From a virus: DNA of 33,689 nt. Position numbers and translations under genes: made by a program. Positions 1 to 17,577 of this stretch are shown in pieces (the first letter of the stretch is position 1; each line of letters opens with the position of its first letter). The stretch spans positions 1-33,689 of IMG/VR virus record IMGVR_UViG_3300024262_001784; one strand, given 5' to 3'. The notes under the pieces are model-generated. The model was not told the origin of the DNA and did not search any database. It was given only the letters and a program-made list of their open reading frames with translations.

Positions 1-412
1 TTCGGTTATTGTGGCTCATCTAAACAAACTTCATCCTAACGCATCCCAGTGGCGGGTTTCACTTCGGTGGAACTAAGGTGGAAGGTCGGTTACGGTTCTT
101 TGGGAAGAATACGAAAGGTAAGCCCCCAGGTCTTTGGATTTGGGTAAGGAGCCTTTCTAATAAGGGGTGACACCCGATGCCGTTAGTCAACCGACTGATA
201 CATCCGATTGGATAAGGAGTAGTTAAACTGTCAGAGCATACCAACGTGATGGCTATTTAATAGTTCCAAAGATGAATGTTGCCCGATACAACGGGTACAC
301 AGGAATCTTGAAGAACCGCACAGTAGGGCTGGTACCCCGAAACGTATGATAAGTGTTGTATTGTGTACCTCAAAGGGGTATGTATCAGTAGAGTGGGCAC
401 TTGTCGGTGGAC

Positions 413-484
413 ATAACAAATTAGCTCAGGGTAGAGCATTTCTCGTTAAAGAAAAGGTCGTGGTGTCAAAACCGCACTTGTTAT
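413..484 (+). tRNA. tRNA-Asn(GTT)-like fold embedded in the giant RNA, shortened loops
   Basis: A cloverleaf can be drawn. The acceptor helix is ATAACAA (413-419) with TTGTTAT (478-484). The D arm is GCTC (424-427) with GAGC (434-437) after a canonical T8-A9. The anticodon stem is TTTCT (439-443) with AGAAA (450-454), and the T stem is 460-464 with 471-475. The anticodon loop is CGTTAA, six bases instead of seven: it looks like an Asn loop CTGTTAA that lost U33. The T loop is also six bases (GTCAAA) and the D loop is short. The element sits between the two arms of a 7-bp helix (391-397/499-505), so it appears built into the larger RNA as a domain. It is unlikely to decode normally. A degenerate tRNA is the alternative. 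Confidence 0.5.
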
Positions 485-815
485 TCAAAACGGAAAGTCC
501 CACTCAACATCAATCTGAAAGTCGCTTAATTCTTGGCACTACGGTGAACCAAGAGCTCAGAAGCTCCCAAGGCAGATGAGTTTGATTGAAAGATGCACCT
601 AATGGTTTAGCGACCATGAACTACTCGCAAGGTAGGGGGAAATCGGAAAGTCGATTACGATTGATGGGAAAAGTTGTGTCACCAACTATAAAATGGCAGC
701 GTCGCTGACGGACTATCTTGGATAGTGGATAAGTTAAGAACCCTACTGTGGGAACAATAGGGATAATGTAACGAAAGTGTCAGTATATAAGGTGTAATCT
801 CAACCTTTTACCAAT

Positions 816-858
816 TTATCTAAATGGAACACGGTGGGTTCGAATCCCTCATAGATAA
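816..858 (+). ncRNA. tRNA acceptor/T-arm minihelix at the 3' end of the giant RNA
   Basis: TTATCTA (816-822) pairs with TAGATAA (852-858). A T arm lies just inside: stem 834-838 with 846-850 (one T-T mismatch) and a perfect canonical T loop TTCGAAT (839-845). Only 11 bases separate the 5' acceptor strand from the T stem, so the D and anticodon arms are absent. What remains is the half of a tRNA recognised by RNase P, CCA-adding enzyme and EF-Tu. A plausible role is a 3'-processing mark for the giant RNA (inference). It could instead be the 3' remnant of a decayed tRNA gene. Confidence 0.5.
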
Positions 859-891: not shown

Positions 892-921
892 TTGTCAGTT
901 CAAAAAAAAGTCGTATATTTG
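892..921 (+). promoter_or_regulatory. Bacteroidota-type promoter P1 for tRNA-like array 1
   Basis: TTG at 892-894 and TATATTTG at 914-921 are separated by 19 bases, matching the -33 TTTG / -7 TAnnTTTG architecture of Bacteroidota housekeeping promoters. It lies in an AT-rich spacer (about 873-955) that is repeated almost word for word at about 1244-1323. Transcription would begin near 928 and read the elements at 962-1232. Confidence 0.75.
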
Positions 922-961: not shown

Positions 962-1034
962 GGTCCTATCGTCTAAACAAGGAGAGGACACCAAGGCTAT
1001 CTTGGTAATGGAGGTTCGAACCATCCTGGGACTA
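962..1034 (+). tRNA. Glu-like tRNA-like RNA with 5-nt anticodon loop (copy A)
   Basis: The acceptor GGTCCTA (962-968) pairs with TGGGACT (1027-1033). Bases TC at 969-970 precede a D stem GTCT (971-974)/GGAC (986-989), the pattern of tRNA-Glu. The T arm 1010-1026 has the canonical loop TTCGAAC and one G-A mismatch in its stem. The anticodon stem CCAAG (991-995)/CTTGG (1001-1005) closes a loop of only five bases, GCTAT, so there is no normal 7-base loop with U33 and a triplet. No CCA is encoded. The copy at 1433-1545 keeps the same short loop. It is therefore tRNA-shaped but probably cannot decode. Confidence 0.7.
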
Positions 1035-1038
1035 CACA

Positions 1039-1140
1039 GGAGATTTAATTGTTTCGTCCAATTTGAGGACACTTTCTGAAGAGTTTTAAGAAAATATAGA
1101 AAGAAACACGGGTATCGATTCCCGTAACAACTAAATCCCT
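1039..1140 (+). ncRNA. tRNA-like RNA with extended acceptor helix and large anticodon-loop insert (copy B)
   Basis: The two ends pair over about 15 positions (1039-1053 with 1126-1140), twice the length of a normal acceptor stem, with two A-C mismatches. Inside are a D arm GTCC (1056-1059)/GGAC (1067-1070), an anticodon-type stem CTTTC (1072-1076)/GAAAG (1099-1103) with a 22-base loop, and a T arm ACGGG (1108-1112)/CCCGT (1121-1125) whose loop TATCGATT has eight bases. The related copy at 1550-1638 has an 8-base anticodon-arm loop and the same 8-base T loop. It starts four bases after copy A, so the two were probably transcribed and duplicated as a pair. No usual anticodon can be assigned. 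Confidence 0.55.
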
Positions 1141-1156
1141 TATTAAAATGTCATAC

Positions 1157-1232
1157 CGCCCGTTCGTCTAGTCAGGTTCAGGACGCTAGGTTTTCATCCT
1201 AGAAATCATGGGTTCGAATCCCATACGGGTGA
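1157..1232 (+). tRNA. tRNA-Glu (anticodon TTC)
   Basis: This is a full canonical cloverleaf. The acceptor is 1157-1163/1225-1231 with one G-T pair, the D stem GTCT (1166-1169)/GGAC (1181-1184), the anticodon stem CTAGG (1186-1190)/CCTAG (1198-1202), the loop TTTTCAT with anticodon TTC at 1193-1195, and the T arm ATGGG/CCCAT around TTCGAAT. The discriminator is A1232 and CCA is not encoded. It is the normal member against which the shortened Glu-like elements nearby can be compared. Confidence 0.92.
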
Positions 1233-1262
1233 CAAAATAAAGTAAAAAATACAAAGAAAAAC

Positions 1263-1291
1263 TTGTCAGTTTAAAAAAAGTCGTATATTTG
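1263..1291 (+). promoter_or_regulatory. Bacteroidota-type promoter P2 for tRNA-like array 2
   Basis: TTG at 1263-1265 and TATATTTG at 1284-1291 are separated by 18 bases. The surrounding spacer (about 1244-1323) is a near copy of the P1 spacer (about 873-955), so promoter and leader were duplicated with the array. It would drive the elements from 1331 to the initiator tRNA at 1819. Confidence 0.72.
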
Positions 1292-1330
1292 TATTGTAAT
1301 TAGTTCATAAAAATATTGAAAGTTAAACAC

Positions 1331-1414
1331 GGCCTTTTCGTCTAACGGGTTCTTCGGAACATTAAGGATACCAGGATTTCCTGGAAATGTGTGGTTCGAG
1401 TCCCACAAAGGCTA
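1331..1414 (+). tRNA. Glu-like tRNA-like RNA with 4-nt anticodon loop (copy F)
   Basis: The acceptor GGCCTTT (1331-1337) pairs with AAAGGCT (1407-1413), and the discriminator is A1414. The D stem GTCT (1340-1343)/GGAT (1366-1369) encloses a 22-base loop that holds its own GTTC-TTCG-GAAC hairpin (1349-1360). The anticodon stem CCAGG (1371-1375)/CCTGG (1380-1384) is capped by just ATTT (1376-1379), four bases. The T loop TTCGAGT is canonical, but the T stem pairs best with T1392 bulged out. The element at 1648-1732 shares both the 4-base loop and the bulged T. It cannot present an anticodon. Confidence 0.7.
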
Positions 1415-1416
1415 CA

Positions 1417-1432
1417 AGTTACTTCGGTAACT
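1417..1432 (+). other. UUCG-capped spacer hairpin
   Basis: AGTTAC (1417-1422) and GTAACT (1427-1432) form a perfect 6-bp stem capped by the extra-stable TTCG loop. It exactly fills the gap between two tRNA-like elements and may act as a rigid linker or processing block in the shared transcript (inference). Confidence 0.75.
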
Positions 1433-1545
1433 GGTCCTATCGTCTAACAGGAAGTCAACTCCCTATCTCTTATAAGGGTATGGATTAAGTTGATAAGGAC
1501 GCCAAGGTTATCTTGGTAATGGAGGTTCGAACCCTTCTGGGACTA
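1433..1545 (+). tRNA. Glu-like tRNA-like RNA with 5-nt anticodon loop and D-loop hairpin insert (copy C)
   Basis: The acceptor GGTCCTA (1433-1439)/TGGGACT (1538-1544), TC and GTCT/GGAC D stem (1442-1445/1497-1500) match copy A. The D loop is about 51 bases and contains a nested hairpin (TCAACT 1455-1460 with AGTTGA 1488-1493, and CCCT with AGGG inside). The anticodon stem CCAAG (1502-1506)/CTTGG (1512-1516) closes GTTAT, five bases. The T arm 1521-1537 with loop TTCGAAC is well paired. Relative to copy A, the acceptor, anticodon stem and T loop are kept while the D loop has changed freely. Confidence 0.7.
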
Positions 1546-1549
1546 CACA

Positions 1550-1638
1550 GGAGATTTAATTGTTTCGTCCAATTTGAGGACACTTTCTAAACATAGAAAG
1601 AAACATGGGTATCGATTCCCATAACTTTTAAATCCCTT
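1550..1638 (+). ncRNA. tRNA-like RNA with extended acceptor helix (copy D)
   Basis: This is a near copy of the element at 1039-1140. The ends pair over about 15 positions with a small TT/TT internal loop and an A-C mismatch. The D arm is GTCC (1567-1570)/GGAC (1578-1581). The anticodon-type stem CTTTC (1583-1587)/GAAAG (1596-1600) closes the 8-base loop TAAACATA. The T arm ATGGG (1605-1609)/CCCAT (1618-1622) keeps the 8-base loop TATCGATT, while its stem sequence differs from copy B by a compensated base pair (ACGGG/CCCGT against ATGGG/CCCAT). That covariation supports a folded RNA. Confidence 0.58.
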
Positions 1639-1647
1639 ACTAAATAT

Positions 1648-1732
1648 GGCCCTTTCGTCTAACGGAGCACTTAACTGTGTGTAGGACATCAGGTTATCCT
1701 GGAAATGCGTGGTTCGAGTCCCGCATGGGCTA
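1648..1732 (+). tRNA. Glu-like tRNA-like RNA with 4-nt anticodon loop (copy G)
   Basis: The acceptor GGCCCTT (1648-1654) pairs with 1725-1731 with one T-T mismatch, and the discriminator is A1732. The D stem GTCT (1657-1660)/GGAC (1684-1687) carries a 23-base loop. The anticodon stem TCAGG (1689-1693)/CCTGG (1698-1702) closes TTAT (1694-1697), four bases. Compared with the normal Glu loop TTTTCAT, this is what remains if the TTC anticodon is removed. The T loop TTCGAGT is canonical and T1710 is bulged in the T stem, as in copy F. Confidence 0.72.
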
Positions 1733-1746
1733 CTAATAAGATATAT

Positions 1747-1819
1747 TGCGGGGTGGAGCAGTGGTCAGCTCGATGGGCTCATAACCCATAGGTCGTAGGT
1801 TCGAACCCTACTCCCGCTA
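1747..1819 (+). tRNA. Initiator tRNA-Met (anticodon CAT)
   Basis: This is a canonical cloverleaf with initiator hallmarks. Position 1 (T1747) and its partner T1818 are unpaired, the rest of the acceptor (1748-1753/1812-1817) is paired, and the anticodon stem ATGGG/CCCAT ends in three consecutive G-C pairs around the loop CTCATAA. The D stem is GAGC/GCTC, and the T arm GTAGG/CCTAC encloses TTCGAAC. The discriminator is A1819 and no CCA is encoded. An initiator-type tRNA is less usual in phages than elongator tRNAs. It closes the second array and is followed by a T run (1822-1829). Confidence 0.9.
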
Positions 1820-1887: not shown

Positions 1888-4089
1888 TTAACCGTAAATG
1901 TTTACAATTCCCTTACTTAAAGCAATTTCTTTTATTTTATCCACGACTTCTTTAGATGTTCCCTTTCTTTCCATCATTTTAAATTTTGGGAAGAATCGTA
2001 TAAGATGTATAGGGACATCTTTCATTCCATTATCAACTATCCATTGATACATATCATTTATAGTATATGGATCATCTGTCAAATCTTCGATAATAAGGTT
2101 AGTTATCTCAATATGTACCCCACTATCAAAAAGTGTTTTAATAGTGTTTAAAACATGCCCCAACTCACCCTTAGTGACTTTCTTGTGTATATCAGGGTCA
2201 AAAGTTTTCAAATCTATATTAGCCGCATCTATATAAGGTATAAGTTCCTTTAATGGTTCTGGATTTATATATCCATTTGAAACCATTACAGTTTTTATAT
2301 TATTATCCTTAGCAATTTTTGCAATATCTAACATATATTCAAAATATATGGTAGGTTCAGTATATGTAAATGCAATCAAATCTAATCCACGATTTTTACA
2401 ATCATTTACTATGTCTATTGGTTCAATATTTTGGTGTTTTTCATTTTTAATTTGTGATATACCATCATTTTGACAATTACCACAATGGAAATTACAACCA
2501 TTACAACTTAATGAATATATCATTTTTCCTGGATGGAAATGTCTTAATGGTTTCTTTTCAATTGGATCAATTGCACCTATAATACCAGGGTTATTATATC
2601 CCAATGAATATAATTCTCCATCAATATTTTTTCTTGATATACAATTACCAATTTTACCATCAGATATTTTACAATAATGTGGACATAAATTACATACCAC
2701 TTTATTATTATCTAATTTTTCATAATAAGAAGCTTCCTTTAATAATTCATTTTCATTAAATACAATTGCTTCATAAGTGTAAAGATTTGCATCTTTCCAA
2801 CCGTCCCATCCTAAATTTGCTTTTGTTTGTGAACATTGTCCTAAAAATTCTTCTTTACTCCATCCTGTTTCTGTTGCAACCTGTGGTAGAAATGTTCCAC
2901 TCTTTCCATCCTTTTCAATATAAATTCCATGTTTACCCAATTCAATTTCATTGATTGAATTAATTTTTTTTAATGGTGTTAATACTGATATTTCTATTTC
3001 TAATTCATTTAATTCGTTTTCATGAACTTTTTGAAATCTATTATCTTGTGTAGATGATATTGTCATATTTTTAACTACATCACATAAATGATAATTTGCA
3101 CCAAATAATCCAATACATCCTCTCAATTCACCACCTTTCTTTTTAAGAGTTACAAAACTACCCATATTTGTTTTTAAATTATCCGATAATTCATCACGAT
3201 GTATTTCTGGAACAATTCCATATCTAATATATGATTCTAATGTATTTCTTGATATTTTCATTAAATCAATTTTATCAGAATATTTCAATTCAAATTCTTT
3301 TTCATTTTTAGTAAATACAATAGATGAATAACCAACAACACTATCTTTATTATTTGTAACATGCCCAGAATTTTTATACAACATCATTGTACTTTTAATT
3401 CCTTTTAATTGTGTAAGTATATTTACCAAAATAATGATAGATGACCAACCACACATTTTAGTTACTAATTCGTTCATTTTAATATCACTAAAAATATAAT
3501 TTTTCAAATTATCTAAATTTAAATCCATTATTGTTTTAATTGAATCATAATCAACTTTTATAGCATCATCATATGATGGATAATGTGAAAGATCTGAACT
3601 TATAACAAATAAATTTTTACTATTAAAATATGGTTTTAATGTTTCGGATATTTTTATTAAATTATCTATATTGGTTTCTCCAACCATTAATGGGATTATT
3701 GGTGTATCTGGTAATTTTTCTTTTAAAAATGGTAATTGAATTTCTAAATTATGATCATCTTTAAATATATCAATGTCTTTAAAAAACAATTCTTTATTTT
3801 CTAATTCATTACAGATTTCTTGGTTTATTAATAACCCATAATAATCCATATCATTTAATATTGATATACCATTAAATGTTGTTTTATGACTTGTTGCTAT
3901 AATGAACACATTATCATAATTATCTATTTGGTTAAAACCAGTTGCTGCAACTTTTCCTGAATAATAATATCCAGCATGGGGAGATATTAAAGCAACAACA
4001 TTTTCTAATTCTTTTTGTATTGAATCATTTAATAAATCCGTGACTTTAATATTTCCAATAAATTGATTGGTTATGTCACTTAATATCAT
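1888..4089 (-). CDS. AmmeMemoRadiSam fusion: MEMO1-like + AMMECR1 + radical SAM enzyme
   Basis: One 733-residue chain carries the three proteins of the AmmeMemoRadiSam system. Residues about 1-262 are MEMO-like (SPHAGYYYSG with H38, SH at 67-68, SSDLSHY, MCGWSS with C213, matching the His/His/Cys metal site of MEMO1). Residues about 270-455 are AMMECR1-like with the LRGCIGL signature at 322-328. Residues about 460-733 are the system's radical SAM enzyme: an auxiliary set C466, C469, C473, C483, then the SAM-cluster motif C532-x3-C536-x2-C539 followed by QN. In cells these are usually separate genes, or protein B fused to A; the reaction is unknown, so no substrate can be named. All key residues are intact. 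It is last in a minus-strand run and its ATG overlaps the upstream stop by one base. The gene converges on the tRNA-like arrays. Family assignment is firm; a function in the phage is not known. Confidence 0.92.
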   Translation of the reverse strand: MILSDITNQFIGNIKVTDLLNDSIQKELENVVALISPHAGYYYSGKVAATGFNQIDNYDNVFIIATSHKTTFNGISILNDMDYYGLLINQEICNELENKELFFKDIDIFKDDHNLEIQLPFLKEKLPDTPIIPLMVGETNIDNLIKISETLKPYFNSKNLFVISSDLSHYPSYDDAIKVDYDSIKTIMDLNLDNLKNYIFSDIKMNELVTKMCGWSSIIILVNILTQLKGIKSTMMLYKNSGHVTNNKDSVVGYSSIVFTKNEKEFELKYSDKIDLMKISRNTLESYIRYGIVPEIHRDELSDNLKTNMGSFVTLKKKGGELRGCIGLFGANYHLCDVVKNMTISSTQDNRFQKVHENELNELEIEISVLTPLKKINSINEIELGKHGIYIEKDGKSGTFLPQVATETGWSKEEFLGQCSQTKANLGWDGWKDANLYTYEAIVFNENELLKEASYYEKLDNNKVVCNLCPHYCKISDGKIGNCISRKNIDGELYSLGYNNPGIIGAIDPIEKKPLRHFHPGKMIYSLSCNGCNFHCGNCQNDGISQIKNEKHQNIEPIDIVNDCKNRGLDLIAFTYTEPTIYFEYMLDIAKIAKDNNIKTVMVSNGYINPEPLKELIPYIDAANIDLKTFDPDIHKKVTKGELGHVLNTIKTLFDSGVHIEITNLIIEDLTDDPYTINDMYQWIVDNGMKDVPIHLIRFFPKFKMMERKGTSKEVVDKIKEIALSKGIVNIYG

Positions 4090-12519: not shown

Positions 12520-14397
12520 TTAATTTGAATATGTGTATTTTAAATTACCAGAATCATATATTCTATAAATTTTTCTATCCAACATTATTTGTCTTTCTGA
12601 CTTATCCTTAGAATATCCTGCCTTTATTAAAATATCTTTTCTATATCCAAATCTATATTTTCGTTTTCTATTGACAATATAATAGTAATTTGGTAATGTC
12701 TTTCCTTTATAATCAAATCCTAATTGTTCATACAAATTTCCATTTGACCACGATCTATCGGCGTATGTTGTTATCTCCTTTGGATTGTAATTTTTAATAA
12801 AATATTTAAATAATTTATTTGCACCACCAACAACATTTGTATTCAATTTAGAACAAAATCTCAATAATTCATATTCTTCACCATTTGAAACACTATTCAT
12901 TATTTTTCTTTTTTTACCAAAAGTCATCAAACTAACTAATTCGTTTTCATAAAATAAACCCAATTTAACAAATGATCCAATAAATCCTTGTCGATGATTA
13001 TCATCAAGAAAATTCCTAACTAACTTATTATCAATTATTTCTTTTATTTTTGTTTTCCTTGCATAAATTTTATTTGTAGATTCTCCTAATTTGTTCTTTA
13101 TCATTGATTTAATTATATCTTTTTTAAATTCCCAATCATCTTCATATATGTGAATTAATTGAATTCCTTGTTCTCCACACAATTCTGTTTTATTTAAATG
13201 ATAATTTTTTTCTTTATATAATTCATTGTGCCAATATAATCCATTAAATTCAAATGCTAATTTCAATTCTGGAAGATAAATGTCTAATTCATAAGGTGAT
13301 ATTATATATCTACTATTTAATATAACATTACCATTATAATTGTCTATTATGAAATCTTTTAAAGAATTTTCATTTTCAGAAAATGAATTTATTGGGTTAC
13401 AAATAGTGCATAAATTTTTATTTTGTAAATGTCTATTATATAATAATTGATAAGATGTATCAAATATATTTTCACAAATATTACATTTTACTTTAATAAT
13501 ATCGTTATTTATATCATCTATACCCATACCATATTTATTATGTATATTACATATTTTCCTTTTTTTAACTTTTTCTTTATAATTATTAGATTGGGAATAA
13601 TATTCTACACCATATCTTTCTAAATTTGTTTCTTTTTGTTTTTCCTTAAATTCATCTAACAACATATAATGTTCAACTCCATATTTATTATAAATTGATA
13701 ATTTTAATTTTTTAACAAATTCTTCTAATTTCATTGGGTTATCAACTCCATATCTTTCTAAATTAGTTTCTTTTTGTTTTTCCTTAAATTCATCTAACAA
13801 CATATAATGTTCAACACCATATCTTTCTAAATTAGTTTGTTTACTTTTTTCTTTAATAATATTCGACTTAAGTGGATGATCAACTCCATATCTTTCCAAA
13901 TTAGTTTGTTTACTTTTTTCTTTAATAATATTCGACTTAAGTGGATGATCAACACCATATCTTTCTAAATTGGTTTTTTTACTTTTTTCTTTAAAATTAT
14001 CTGTTTGAGTTATCCAATCTTGTCCATATTTTTTTTGATTTACTTTTTTTATTTTTTCTTTAATTTTATCCGATTGTGTTAAATATTCAACTCCATATTT
14101 TTCTAAATTAATTTTTATCTTTTTATCCTGAACAAAATTCAATTGTGAAACATTATCAACCCCATATTTACTTTGTATAGATAATTTTCTTTTTAAATTT
14201 ATACAATCTTTATTATTACAATAATATTTATTTGTTCCATTATCTGTCGATTTATTATATGATTGATATCTTATATCTTTTTTGTTTCCACAATTGTCAC
14301 ATTTCACAGTTACATATTTATGACTATTTAAGGATAAATCTTTAATATATATTAGTTTTTTTCTAATTAATATTTCTTTTGTAATTAACATAAACAT
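12520..14397 (-). CDS. Hef-like homing endonuclease with tandem YGV repeats
   Basis: This 625-residue protein has three parts. An N-terminal zinc-knuckle-like region holds C-x2-C pairs (CDNCGNKKD, YYCNNKDC). Next comes a long array of ~23-residue repeats of the form TNLERYGVxxxxxSxxxKEKxK. The nuclease domain has LDIYLPELKLAFEFNGLYW (D...E of a Vsr/PD-(D/E)XK-like fold), then IQLIHIYEDDW. The last ~170 residues (NHRQGFIGS, YELLRFCSKLNTNVVGGANKLF, TYADRSWS) are conserved with the gene at 15913. The match is to Hef-like phage homing endonucleases: they cut DNA lacking the gene and spread by repair. It flanks the glycosyltransferase at 14513 on one side while its paralogue flanks the other. Two ATGs six bases apart could start it. 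Confidence 0.75.
   Translation of the reverse strand: MFMLITKEILIRKKLIYIKDLSLNSHKYVTVKCDNCGNKKDIRYQSYNKSTDNGTNKYYCNNKDCINLKRKLSIQSKYGVDNVSQLNFVQDKKIKINLEKYGVEYLTQSDKIKEKIKKVNQKKYGQDWITQTDNFKEKSKKTNLERYGVDHPLKSNIIKEKSKQTNLERYGVDHPLKSNIIKEKSKQTNLERYGVEHYMLLDEFKEKQKETNLERYGVDNPMKLEEFVKKLKLSIYNKYGVEHYMLLDEFKEKQKETNLERYGVEYYSQSNNYKEKVKKRKICNIHNKYGMGIDDINNDIIKVKCNICENIFDTSYQLLYNRHLQNKNLCTICNPINSFSENENSLKDFIIDNYNGNVILNSRYIISPYELDIYLPELKLAFEFNGLYWHNELYKEKNYHLNKTELCGEQGIQLIHIYEDDWEFKKDIIKSMIKNKLGESTNKIYARKTKIKEIIDNKLVRNFLDDNHRQGFIGSFVKLGLFYENELVSLMTFGKKRKIMNSVSNGEEYELLRFCSKLNTNVVGGANKLFKYFIKNYNPKEITTYADRSWSNGNLYEQLGFDYKGKTLPNYYYIVNRKRKYRFGYRKDILIKAGYSKDKSERQIMLDRKIYRIYDSGNLKYTYSN
13606..14180 (-). repeat. 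Tandem 69-bp coding repeats in the endonuclease gene
   Basis: Units of 23 codons recur here. Two adjacent copies around 13840-13990 are almost identical in DNA (TNLERYGVDHP units), and another pair of units (YGVEHYMLLDEF) is repeated around 13640-13840. The near-identity in DNA implies recent unequal exchange or slippage, while more distant units have diverged. Confidence 0.85.
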
Positions 14398-15757: not shown

Positions 15758-15916
15758 ATGTTATTAAATATCAAAAAAGCAAGTGAATTAATCGATGTAT
15801 CAAAATCCACATTAAGAAGATGGGAAAAAAATGGAAAAATATCATCTTATAAAACCATTGGTGGACATCGTAGATATGATATAAATGATTTAATGAAATT
15901 AATTATTAAAAAATGA
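15758..15916 (+). CDS. Solo MerR/IS607-type helix-turn-helix protein
   Basis: This 52-residue protein is nothing but a winged HTH: IKKASELIDVSKSTLRRWEK, then GKISSYKTIGGHRRYD. It is the same block that opens IS607-family serine recombinases and MerR-like regulators. The catalytic recombinase domain is absent. The next gene, a Hef-like endonuclease, starts within its stop codon (ATGA overlap at 15913-15916), so the two are translationally coupled. A TATATATAATTAAAA box lies about 10-25 bases upstream. Plausible roles are a repressor of the cassette or a DNA-targeting partner of the nuclease; both are inference. It could also be a relic of an IS607 element whose tnpA lost its catalytic part. 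Confidence 0.8.
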   Translation: MLLNIKKASELIDVSKSTLRRWEKNGKISSYKTIGGHRRYDINDLMKLIIKK

Positions 15917-17577
15917 TAATAACTAAAAATGTAAATATTTTAATAACTAAGAAAAATTTAGAATATTATAAAAATCTTGGATACGATACAGAATTAAAAA
16001 ATATTATTAATATTAAGATATCTGATTTACAAAAAGGTAGTAATAAAATTATTGTTGTTAAATGCGATATTTGTGGTAATGAAAGAAATTTAAAATATGG
16101 TTATTATATAAAAAATATTTTAAAAAATAAAAAATATTATTGTAATAAATGTAAATTTATTTTAACTAAGGAAACAAATTTAAAAAAATATGGGACAGAA
16201 TATTCAATAACATCTAATGATGTTCAAAAGAAAATAAAAAAAACAATTAAAGAAAAGTATGGAGTTGAAAATATTAGTCAAATAAATTCAGTAAAAAGAA
16301 AAATTAAAAAAACCAATTTAGATAAATATGGTGTTGATAATCCAATGAAATCTGATATAATAAAACAAAAGAAAATAGATAATATTTTTAAAAAATATGG
16401 AGTTTCTAATGTTTTTCAAATGGATTCTGTAAAAGAAAAATTGAAAAACACCAATTTAGAAAAATATGGAGAAGAATATAACATAAATTCAAATTTCATA
16501 AAAAGAAAAATTAAAAATACCATAAATAAAAATACTTTAAAAAAATATAAAAAATATAATATATTATCAATAAATAATGATAATAAAAAATATACTTTTA
16601 AATGTGATTGTGGAGAAAATCATAATTTTGATATAAATATTGATTTATTTTATAATAGAAAACAGATAAACACAAAATTATGTACAATATGTAATTCTGT
16701 AAGTTCACAGAATTCAGGGTTAGAAATTCAATTACAAGAATTTATAAAAGATAATTACAATAATATTATATTAAATGATAGACATTTAGGTAAAGAATTA
16801 GATATTTACATTCCTGATTTAAAATTGGCTTTAGAATTCAATGGATTATATTGGCACAATGAGTTACACAAAGAAAATGATTACCATTTAAAGAAAACTG
16901 AATTATGTGAAGAAAAAGGAATACAATTAATACACATTTATGAAGATGATTGGTTATATAAACAAAATATTGTTAAATCTATGATTTTAAATAAGTTAAA
17001 TAAATCTACAAATAGAATTTATGCAAGGAAAACGAAAGTTAGAGAAATAAATGATAATAAGTTAGTTAGAAAATTTCTTGATGAAAATCATCGACAAGGA
17101 TTCGTGGGTTCATCTGTTAAATTAAGTTTATTCTTTGATAATGAATTAGTTAGTTTAATGATATTGGGTAAAAGAAGGATTGTAATGGGTAAGAAAGGAT
17201 CACAAGAAGGTGATTATGAATTATTGAGATTTTGTAGTAAATTAAACACTAATGTTATAGGTGGTGCAAATAAGTTATTTAAATACTTTATTAGAAATTA
17301 TGAACCAAAAGAAATAACGACATATGCTGATCGTTCTTGGAGTCAAGGTGGGATATATAAACAATTGGGATTTGAATATCAGGGTAAAACAAAACCTAAT
17401 TATTATTATATTATTGATGGTATAAGAAATTATAGATTTAATTTCAGAAAAGATAAAATTGTTAAAGAAGGGTTTGATTCTAATAAAACAGAAAGACAAA
17501 TAATGTTGGATAGAAAAATATATAGGATATATGATTCTGGTAATCTAATATATAAAAAAATAGTTGAAAATGGATAA
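15913..17577 (+). CDS. Hef-like homing endonuclease, paired with HTH gene
   Basis: This 554-residue protein is a paralogue of the one at 12520. It has an N-terminal region with C-x2-C pairs (CDICGNERN, YYCNKCK), four or more diverged YGV-type repeats (KYGVDNPMKSDII, KYGVSNVFQMDSV), a second C-x2-C (LCTICN), and a nuclease core GKELDIYIPDLKLALEFNG followed by IQLIHIYEDDW. The conserved C-terminal region (NHRQGFVGSSVKL, ELLRFCSKLNTNVIGGANKLF, TYADRSWSQGG) is shared with 12520. The nuclease residues are intact. The ATG overlaps the upstream HTH stop, and the 3' end overlaps the next glycosyltransferase start, so the cassette is inserted with no spare DNA. Confidence 0.75.
   Translation: MIITKNVNILITKKNLEYYKNLGYDTELKNIINIKISDLQKGSNKIIVVKCDICGNERNLKYGYYIKNILKNKKYYCNKCKFILTKETNLKKYGTEYSITSNDVQKKIKKTIKEKYGVENISQINSVKRKIKKTNLDKYGVDNPMKSDIIKQKKIDNIFKKYGVSNVFQMDSVKEKLKNTNLEKYGEEYNINSNFIKRKIKNTINKNTLKKYKKYNILSINNDNKKYTFKCDCGENHNFDINIDLFYNRKQINTKLCTICNSVSSQNSGLEIQLQEFIKDNYNNIILNDRHLGKELDIYIPDLKLALEFNGLYWHNELHKENDYHLKKTELCEEKGIQLIHIYEDDWLYKQNIVKSMILNKLNKSTNRIYARKTKVREINDNKLVRKFLDENHRQGFVGSSVKLSLFFDNELVSLMILGKRRIVMGKKGSQEGDYELLRFCSKLNTNVIGGANKLFKYFIRNYEPKEITTYADRSWSQGGIYKQLGFEYQGKTKPNYYYIIDGIRNYRFNFRKDKIVKEGFDSNKTERQIMLDRKIYRIYDSGNLIYKKIVENG

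Follow-up and report, generated by a model that had tools for sequence, protein, structure and literature searches.

A tRNA-like array beside GOLLD

The window, the whole 33.7-kb metagenomic IMG/VR virus contig analysed here, carries GOLLD, a giant RNA that forms cages, and, directly 3' of it, an array in the order P-A1-B1-Glu-P-C1-A2-B2-C2-Met, where P denotes a promoter (Table 1). The conserved 3' region of GOLLD exceeds the RF02032 gathering score, an assignment that concerns the neighbour of the array and not the elements themselves. The full GOLLD reaches further upstream, at least to about position 16, with positions 16-784 being 82% identical by blastn to a second contig, L049. As in other phage tRNA arrays, the cluster is dense and includes a normal tRNA-Glu and tRNA-Met; it differs from them in that six of its eight members cannot decode.

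Table 1. RNA features and predicted promoters at the GOLLD end of the window
Feature	Position	Strand	Basis
GOLLD RNA, conserved 3' region	348..806	+	Rfam RF02032, 172.7 bits, E 4.6e-47
tRNA-like domain within GOLLD, 6-nt anticodon loop CGTTAA	415..483	+	RF00005, 38.4 bits
Predicted promoter P1, Bacteroidota-type, TTG-N19-TATATTTG, 40 nt before A1	892..921	+	motif count; same place in L049
A1, Glu-type tRNA-like element, 5-nt loop gctat	962..1034	+	cloverleaf scan, RNA folds
B1, tRNA-like cloverleaf	1038..1140	+	fold z -3.31; homologous to B2 and L049 B
Normal tRNA-Glu(TTC), 7-nt loop, C1-G72	1157..1232	+	ARAGORN; RF00005, 59.4 bits
Predicted promoter P2, Bacteroidota-type, TTG-N18-TATATTTG, 39 nt before C1	1263..1291	+	96% identical to P1 over 49 nt
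C1, Glu-type element, 4-nt loop attt, D-loop hairpin, bulged T in T stem	1331..1414	+	scan, folds
A2, Glu-type element, 5-nt loop gttat, 51-nt D loop with hairpin	1433..1545	+	RF00005, 31.4 bits
B2, second B cloverleaf copy, arm CUUUCUA AACA UAGAAAG	1549..1637	+	fold z -4.60
C2, Glu-type element, 4-nt loop ttat, bulged T in T stem	1648..1732	+	scan, folds
Normal tRNA-Met(CAT), closing the array	1747..1819	+	ARAGORN, Rfam

Cloverleaf scanning and RNA folds reproduced the four Glu-type elements of the original prediction, with loops of 5, 4, 5 and 4 nt in 5' to 3' order, and the normal tRNA-Glu(TTC) expected in the same cluster is present. The elements form two duplicate pairs, A1/A2 and C1/C2. 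Their anticodon arms read CCAAG gctat CTTGG (A1), CCAAG gttat CTTGG (A2), CCAGG attt CCTGG (C1) and TCAGG ttat CCTGG (C2), so that the 7-nt loop with U33 and TTC or CTC that decoding requires of a tRNA-Glu is lacking. All four display a 7-bp Glu-type acceptor stem, a D arm GTCT/GGAY and a 5-bp anticodon stem. The stretch from the D stem to the T arm is exactly 3 nt shorter than in the neighbouring tRNA-Glu, with 23 nt instead of 26 between GGAY and GGTTCGA. The T arms, whose loops had been described as canonical, keep the TTCRANN loop but not in every case the regular stem, as C1 and C2 carry an extra bulged T and A1 has one mismatch. Acceptor stem and T arm, on which an RNase P signal would depend, are both present, and of the features used for charging the body identity residues are retained and the anticodon identity is gone. 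A pattern that captures three of the four elements occurs in none of 100 window shuffles; the single A and C elements fold only mildly better than shuffled sequence (z -0.6 to -2 in the window).

The family proved larger than the four members proposed, since two further cloverleaves, B1 and B2, had been missed. Both have a long acceptor stem, a D-like arm GTCC/GGAC and an 8-nt T-like loop, without an anticodon, and the anticodon-like arm of B2 closes a 4-nt loop. They fold far better than shuffles (Table 1). An A element always lies 5' of a B element and Glu or a C element always 3' of it. ARAGORN called only the two normal tRNAs in the window, leaving out A1, A2, C1 and C2, and the Rfam tRNA model reached A2 but not A1, C1 or C2. 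Intron-containing and split tRNAs were rejected, as loops in the window fall below normal length and hold no insert to remove, and so was a tmRNA, for which we found neither a tag frame nor a match with ARAGORN or Rfam. Directly 3' of GOLLD, at 815-857 (+), a GTTCGAAT T-loop lies inside a 7-bp acceptor-like stem, TTATCTA/TAGATAA, with neither a D nor an anticodon arm present, possibly a mini tRNA-like end. We did not count it among the parts of the array because no L049 equivalent was seen and it gave no folding signal.

Promoters were searched with the motif TTG-N18-21-TAnnTTTG, which we take to be the Bacteroidota promoter type. On the + strand of positions 1-1900 it occurs twice against 0.04 expected, a count reached by 2 of 1000 shuffles; over the whole window it is unenriched (6 vs 6.2). 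P1 is followed first by A1 and P2 first by C1, a placement that speaks for RNAs made for their own sake, and the set is probably transcribed.

Conservation of the array in a second phage

The contig L049 (76.6 kb, from a different metagenome) was reached by pattern search. Its order, GOLLD-P-A-Glu-P-C-A-B-C, is that of the window on the same strand with only B1 absent, and its predicted promoters lie at places equivalent to P1 and P2. The L049 GOLLD, at 13281-13746, scores 147 bits, just under the cut-off, and the proteins shared by the two phages are 29-72% identical. The A anticodon arm follows CCAAG-GYTWT-CTTGG, with a 5-nt loop, in all four copies of the two phages, and the D loops of these copies vary from 11 to about 100 nt. 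All four C copies retain the T-stem bulge (T, T, A and G). Among these copies, T50-A64 and C50-G64 exchange in the T stem, and the C anticodon stem is altered on both sides, from CCAGG/CCTGG to CTAGG/CCTAG. The L049 B element, homologous to B of the window, folds with a z of -5.2. Judged from the two sequences, such changes are those expected of an RNA under selection and not of decay, in agreement with the suggestion that the short loops are kept.

The A1/A2 and C1/C2 duplicates could nevertheless be read as decaying tRNA-Glu genes spread by duplication within a tRNA cluster, since such clusters turn over fast and a pseudo-tRNA inside a mycobacterial GOLLD gene has been reported to be unexpressed (PMC6582537). 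Against this, order, loop length, bulge, compensatory stems, promoters and acceptor ends are all kept between the window and L049, which makes decay unlikely, with a very small probability in our estimate. Core identities between the two phages are 56/62 (90%) for A2, 52/62 (84%) for A1 and 54/63 (86%) for C1. The A values are close to the 61/65 (94%) of the normal tRNA-Glu, so that decay is very unlikely.

Across IMG/VR, the A-arm pattern matched only L049 besides three coincidental matches, and a strict pattern of the window elements had no match. Searches by blastn against named phages recovered mainly stretches of normal tRNA-Met and tRNA-Glu, the best matches being the uncultured huge phages LR756501 and LR745206, whose Glu genes are normal by ARAGORN in the fetched stretches.

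Wider relatives and the host tRNA-Glu signature

A wider pattern, with the D arm fixed, an enlarged D loop required and the anticodon arm left free, returned 47 IMG/VR stretches with 38 distinct fitted elements, 21 of them with 7-nt loops and 17 without. Looser relatives with an inserted D-loop hairpin and a remodelled anticodon arm are present in about 12 phage families. In most of them G18G19 is followed by the D-loop hairpin, and the anticodon arm has a loop of 4-6 nt, a loop of 8 nt or is remodelled to 22-31 nt. The original description of 4- and 5-base loops was therefore too narrow, as loops of relatives span 4-31 nt and some arms are wholly remodelled. Some phages carry the elements in tandem: two each in L021 and L022, three in L141, and four or five in those of L151 and L174. 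Predicted promoters lie 15-70 nt upstream of non-decoding elements in L049 and in the phages of L151, L174, L170, L141 and L166. ARAGORN labels the relatives 'tRNA-???', His, Asn or Trp. In the L151 phage (L426, reverse complement), the 5' leaders of several Glu-like elements appear to form hairpins ending directly at G1, for example AAGTGT...ACACTTC before GGTCTGT, and RNase P access may be affected.

Some elements could be unusual decoders whose altered loops read non-standard codons in particular phage genes; the 8-nt loops of L022, L040, L166 and L170 might act as +1 frameshift suppressors. Such a role appears very improbable to us, as loops of 4 and 5 nt, like those of the window, leave no normal way of presenting a triplet, the arms of other relatives run to 22-31 nt, and the D-loop hairpins are expected to hinder use by the ribosome.

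A set of 20 non-decoding elements was hand-assembled from pattern matches and trimmed to stems and T loop, with anticodon stems picked by best pairing and acceptor and T-stem geometry fixed. Pairing is intact in 98.8% of its stem cells, and its covariation score of 0.741 compares with 0.187 for shuffled sequences and at most 0.21 for slid controls. All 5 anticodon-stem pairs and 5 of the 7 acceptor pairs have changes on both sides. All 20 elements carry G1-U72, A73 and C74, and the choice of elements did not depend on positions 73-74; conservation of the D helix is partly ascertained because the pattern required TCGTCT and GGAC. Relatives exist in other phages, where random decay of these loci would have spoken against the original proposal; stem pairing, compensatory change and synteny with L049 argue against tRNA pseudogenes. 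Chromosomal matches to the wider pattern were either chance hits in coding sequence or Glu genes, and the latter had 7-nt loops with two exceptions: one carries an insert resembling an archaeal tRNA intron, the other a run of N.

The elements were compared with chromosomal tRNA-Glu from 41 sampled Bacteroidota genomes, which gave 44 rows that include some duplicates. Here G1-U72 occurs in 35 of 44 rows and A73C74 in 43 of 44; every row has a variable loop of 4 nt, and many have the anticodon arm CCAGG-TTTTCAT-CCTGG. The C2 loop TTAT is thus this loop without its TTC, as had been proposed. With Bacteroidota tRNA-Glu(TTC) the elements share the acceptor GGYCC..GG(A/G)CT with G1-U72 and A73 C74, the D helix GTCT/GGAC, G18G19, the 4-nt variable loop and, in C, the CCAGG/CCTGG arm; they differ in having neither an anticodon nor a 7-nt loop, in their D-loop hairpins and in the C T-stem bulge. 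Their D helix is of the Glu type, with U11-A24 and U13-G22, and the G18G19/T-loop elbow residues are found in most copies. The looser relatives likewise retain G1-U72, A73 and the Glu-type D helix. In contrast, the decoding tRNA-Glu of both the window and L049 has C1-G72 and a 5-nt variable loop. By these sequence features, the non-decoding elements are nearer to the host tRNA-Glu body than the phage's own decoding tRNA-Glu is.

Specificity for Glu holds at the window locus but not for phages generally. A TAGCTC-type tRNA control pattern also yielded short-loop elements, although some of these calls come from the scanner misreading normal tRNA-Gly, and we rejected a 'Glu-only' phenomenon. As phages carry short-loop genes of other isotypes, the class does not have to be explained by a target specific to Glu, and the short loops across phages may have more than one cause. 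Glu-type genes with 5-6 nt loops were also seen in L059, L071, L080, L116, L119, L014, L078, L079 and L104, several of them within otherwise normal phage tRNA arrays, and ARAGORN calls them His, Glu, Leu or unknown. A further homologous set, unrelated to Glu, occurs in L312, L322, L349 and L364, some of these contigs apparently coming from isolate genomes; its tRNA-like genes share CCGCCA(T/C).., an encoded ACCA and 5-6 nt anticodon loops.

Association with GOLLD and candidate roles

With near-identical contigs collapsed into families by judgement, GOLLD (E <= 0.001, same contig) accompanies enlarged-D-loop Glu-like elements in 7 of 12 families, whereas 6 of 41 control phage contigs contain it (Fisher p 0.005). 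The numbers are small, one carrier, L124, was also found via GOLLD itself, and the controls differ in lineage and size. In most carriers GOLLD lies within about 1 kb of an element, and in L022 and L124 no more than about 10 nt separate its 3' end from the start of a non-decoding element. The distance is 22 kb in L021 and over 6 kb in L141, and GOLLD was not found in the recovered contigs of L026, L165 and L166. GOLLD has been described before near tRNA islands and with tRNAs in its linker (PMC12286853, PMC6582537). The elements share a locus with GOLLD and its internal (pseudo-)tRNA but are separate from it, lying up- or downstream with promoters of their own and lacking an anticodon. In open-access full text we found no description of anticodon-less tRNA-like arrays beside GOLLD.

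In line with this enrichment and proximity, the elements might be partners of the GOLLD cage, co-expressed with it and bound to it or held inside. GOLLD itself carries an internal tRNA-like domain, and an analogous arrangement has been proposed for the tRNAs in its linker. We consider this reading improbable, given the three carriers that lack GOLLD in the recovered contig, the long distances in L021 and L141, and the imperfect match of the controls.

The elements could alternatively serve as processing or stability tags, tRNA-shaped cut sites that free GOLLD, the B RNAs and the normal tRNAs, with the anticodon lost since cutting does not need it. Mitochondrial tRNA punctuation and mascRNA at the end of MALAT1 are processing sites of this shape, and mascRNA, the tRNA domain of tmRNA and plant-virus tRNA-like structures all pair an acceptor with a T arm but have no regular anticodon arm. 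The elements share that shape and those arms; they differ in not ending a longer coding or long non-coding RNA, in lacking a tag frame and in giving only weak tRNA matches in Rfam. RNase P and tRNA 3' enzymes recognise just the parts that are kept, namely the acceptor stem, the T arm and A73C74, and the abutment on GOLLD in L022 and L124 and the fixed neighbours of B would suit cut sites. However, a role as processing mark is weakened by the placement of A1 and C1 directly after their promoters, where only a short leader has to be removed; anticodon stems and D-loop hairpins, needless for pure cut sites, are also kept, and the normal tRNAs of the same operons would suffice. Overall, we regard such tags as rather unlikely.

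That the elements are tRNA-Glu-like bodies without an anticodon is well supported, and their function as mimics is inferred. A conserved, promoter-driven, GOLLD-adjacent cluster looks like a set of working non-translating mimics rather than broken genes. We hypothesize that the elements derive from a host-type tRNA-Glu that gave up decoding and was maintained in that state. In sequence they have their own predicted Bacteroidota-type promoters and retain the acceptor G1-U72, A73 and C74, the Glu-type D helix and, in most copies, the elbow residues, with the anticodon deleted or its arm remodelled and a D-loop hairpin often added. RNase P and 3' tRNA enzymes would excise the RNAs, which would gain CCA and adopt the L-shaped tRNA fold. 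The mimics may then occupy or titrate a host factor whose target is the tRNA-Glu body and acceptor end; GluRS, a defence enzyme directed at tRNA and other proteins that bind tRNA-Glu are candidates, and the C1-G72 acceptor end would set the phage's own decoding tRNA-Glu apart. For a tRNA without decoding ability, escape from anticodon nucleases would by itself be a poor reason to exist.

We tentatively favour stable, non-decoding mimics occupying a host tRNA-Glu-binding factor, without regarding this as probable. The broader proposal of a dedicated class of Bacteroidota-phage mimics, promoter-driven and coupled to GOLLD, that captures or blocks a host tRNA-binding factor seems somewhat unlikely as it stands. 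Phage tRNA genes are nearly always taken as translation helpers, and conserved, promoter-driven, anticodon-less tRNA bodies would mean that some are made for a non-decoding purpose. Such elements would be missed or mislabelled by tRNA finders, and their link to GOLLD would give a starting point for working out what that RNA cage does.

Two protein features of the window are also worth recording. A 733-aa protein at 1888-4089 (-) adjoins the RNA array and joins Memo (PF01875), AMMECR1 (PF01871) and radical SAM (PF04055) domains, that is, a fused AmmeMemoRadiSam system in a single phage polypeptide; used as a query for relatives, the Memo/AMMECR1 protein returned none. Paralogous proteins at 12520-14397 (-) and 15913-17577 (+) match DUF7487 and PHROG homing/HNH endonuclease families.
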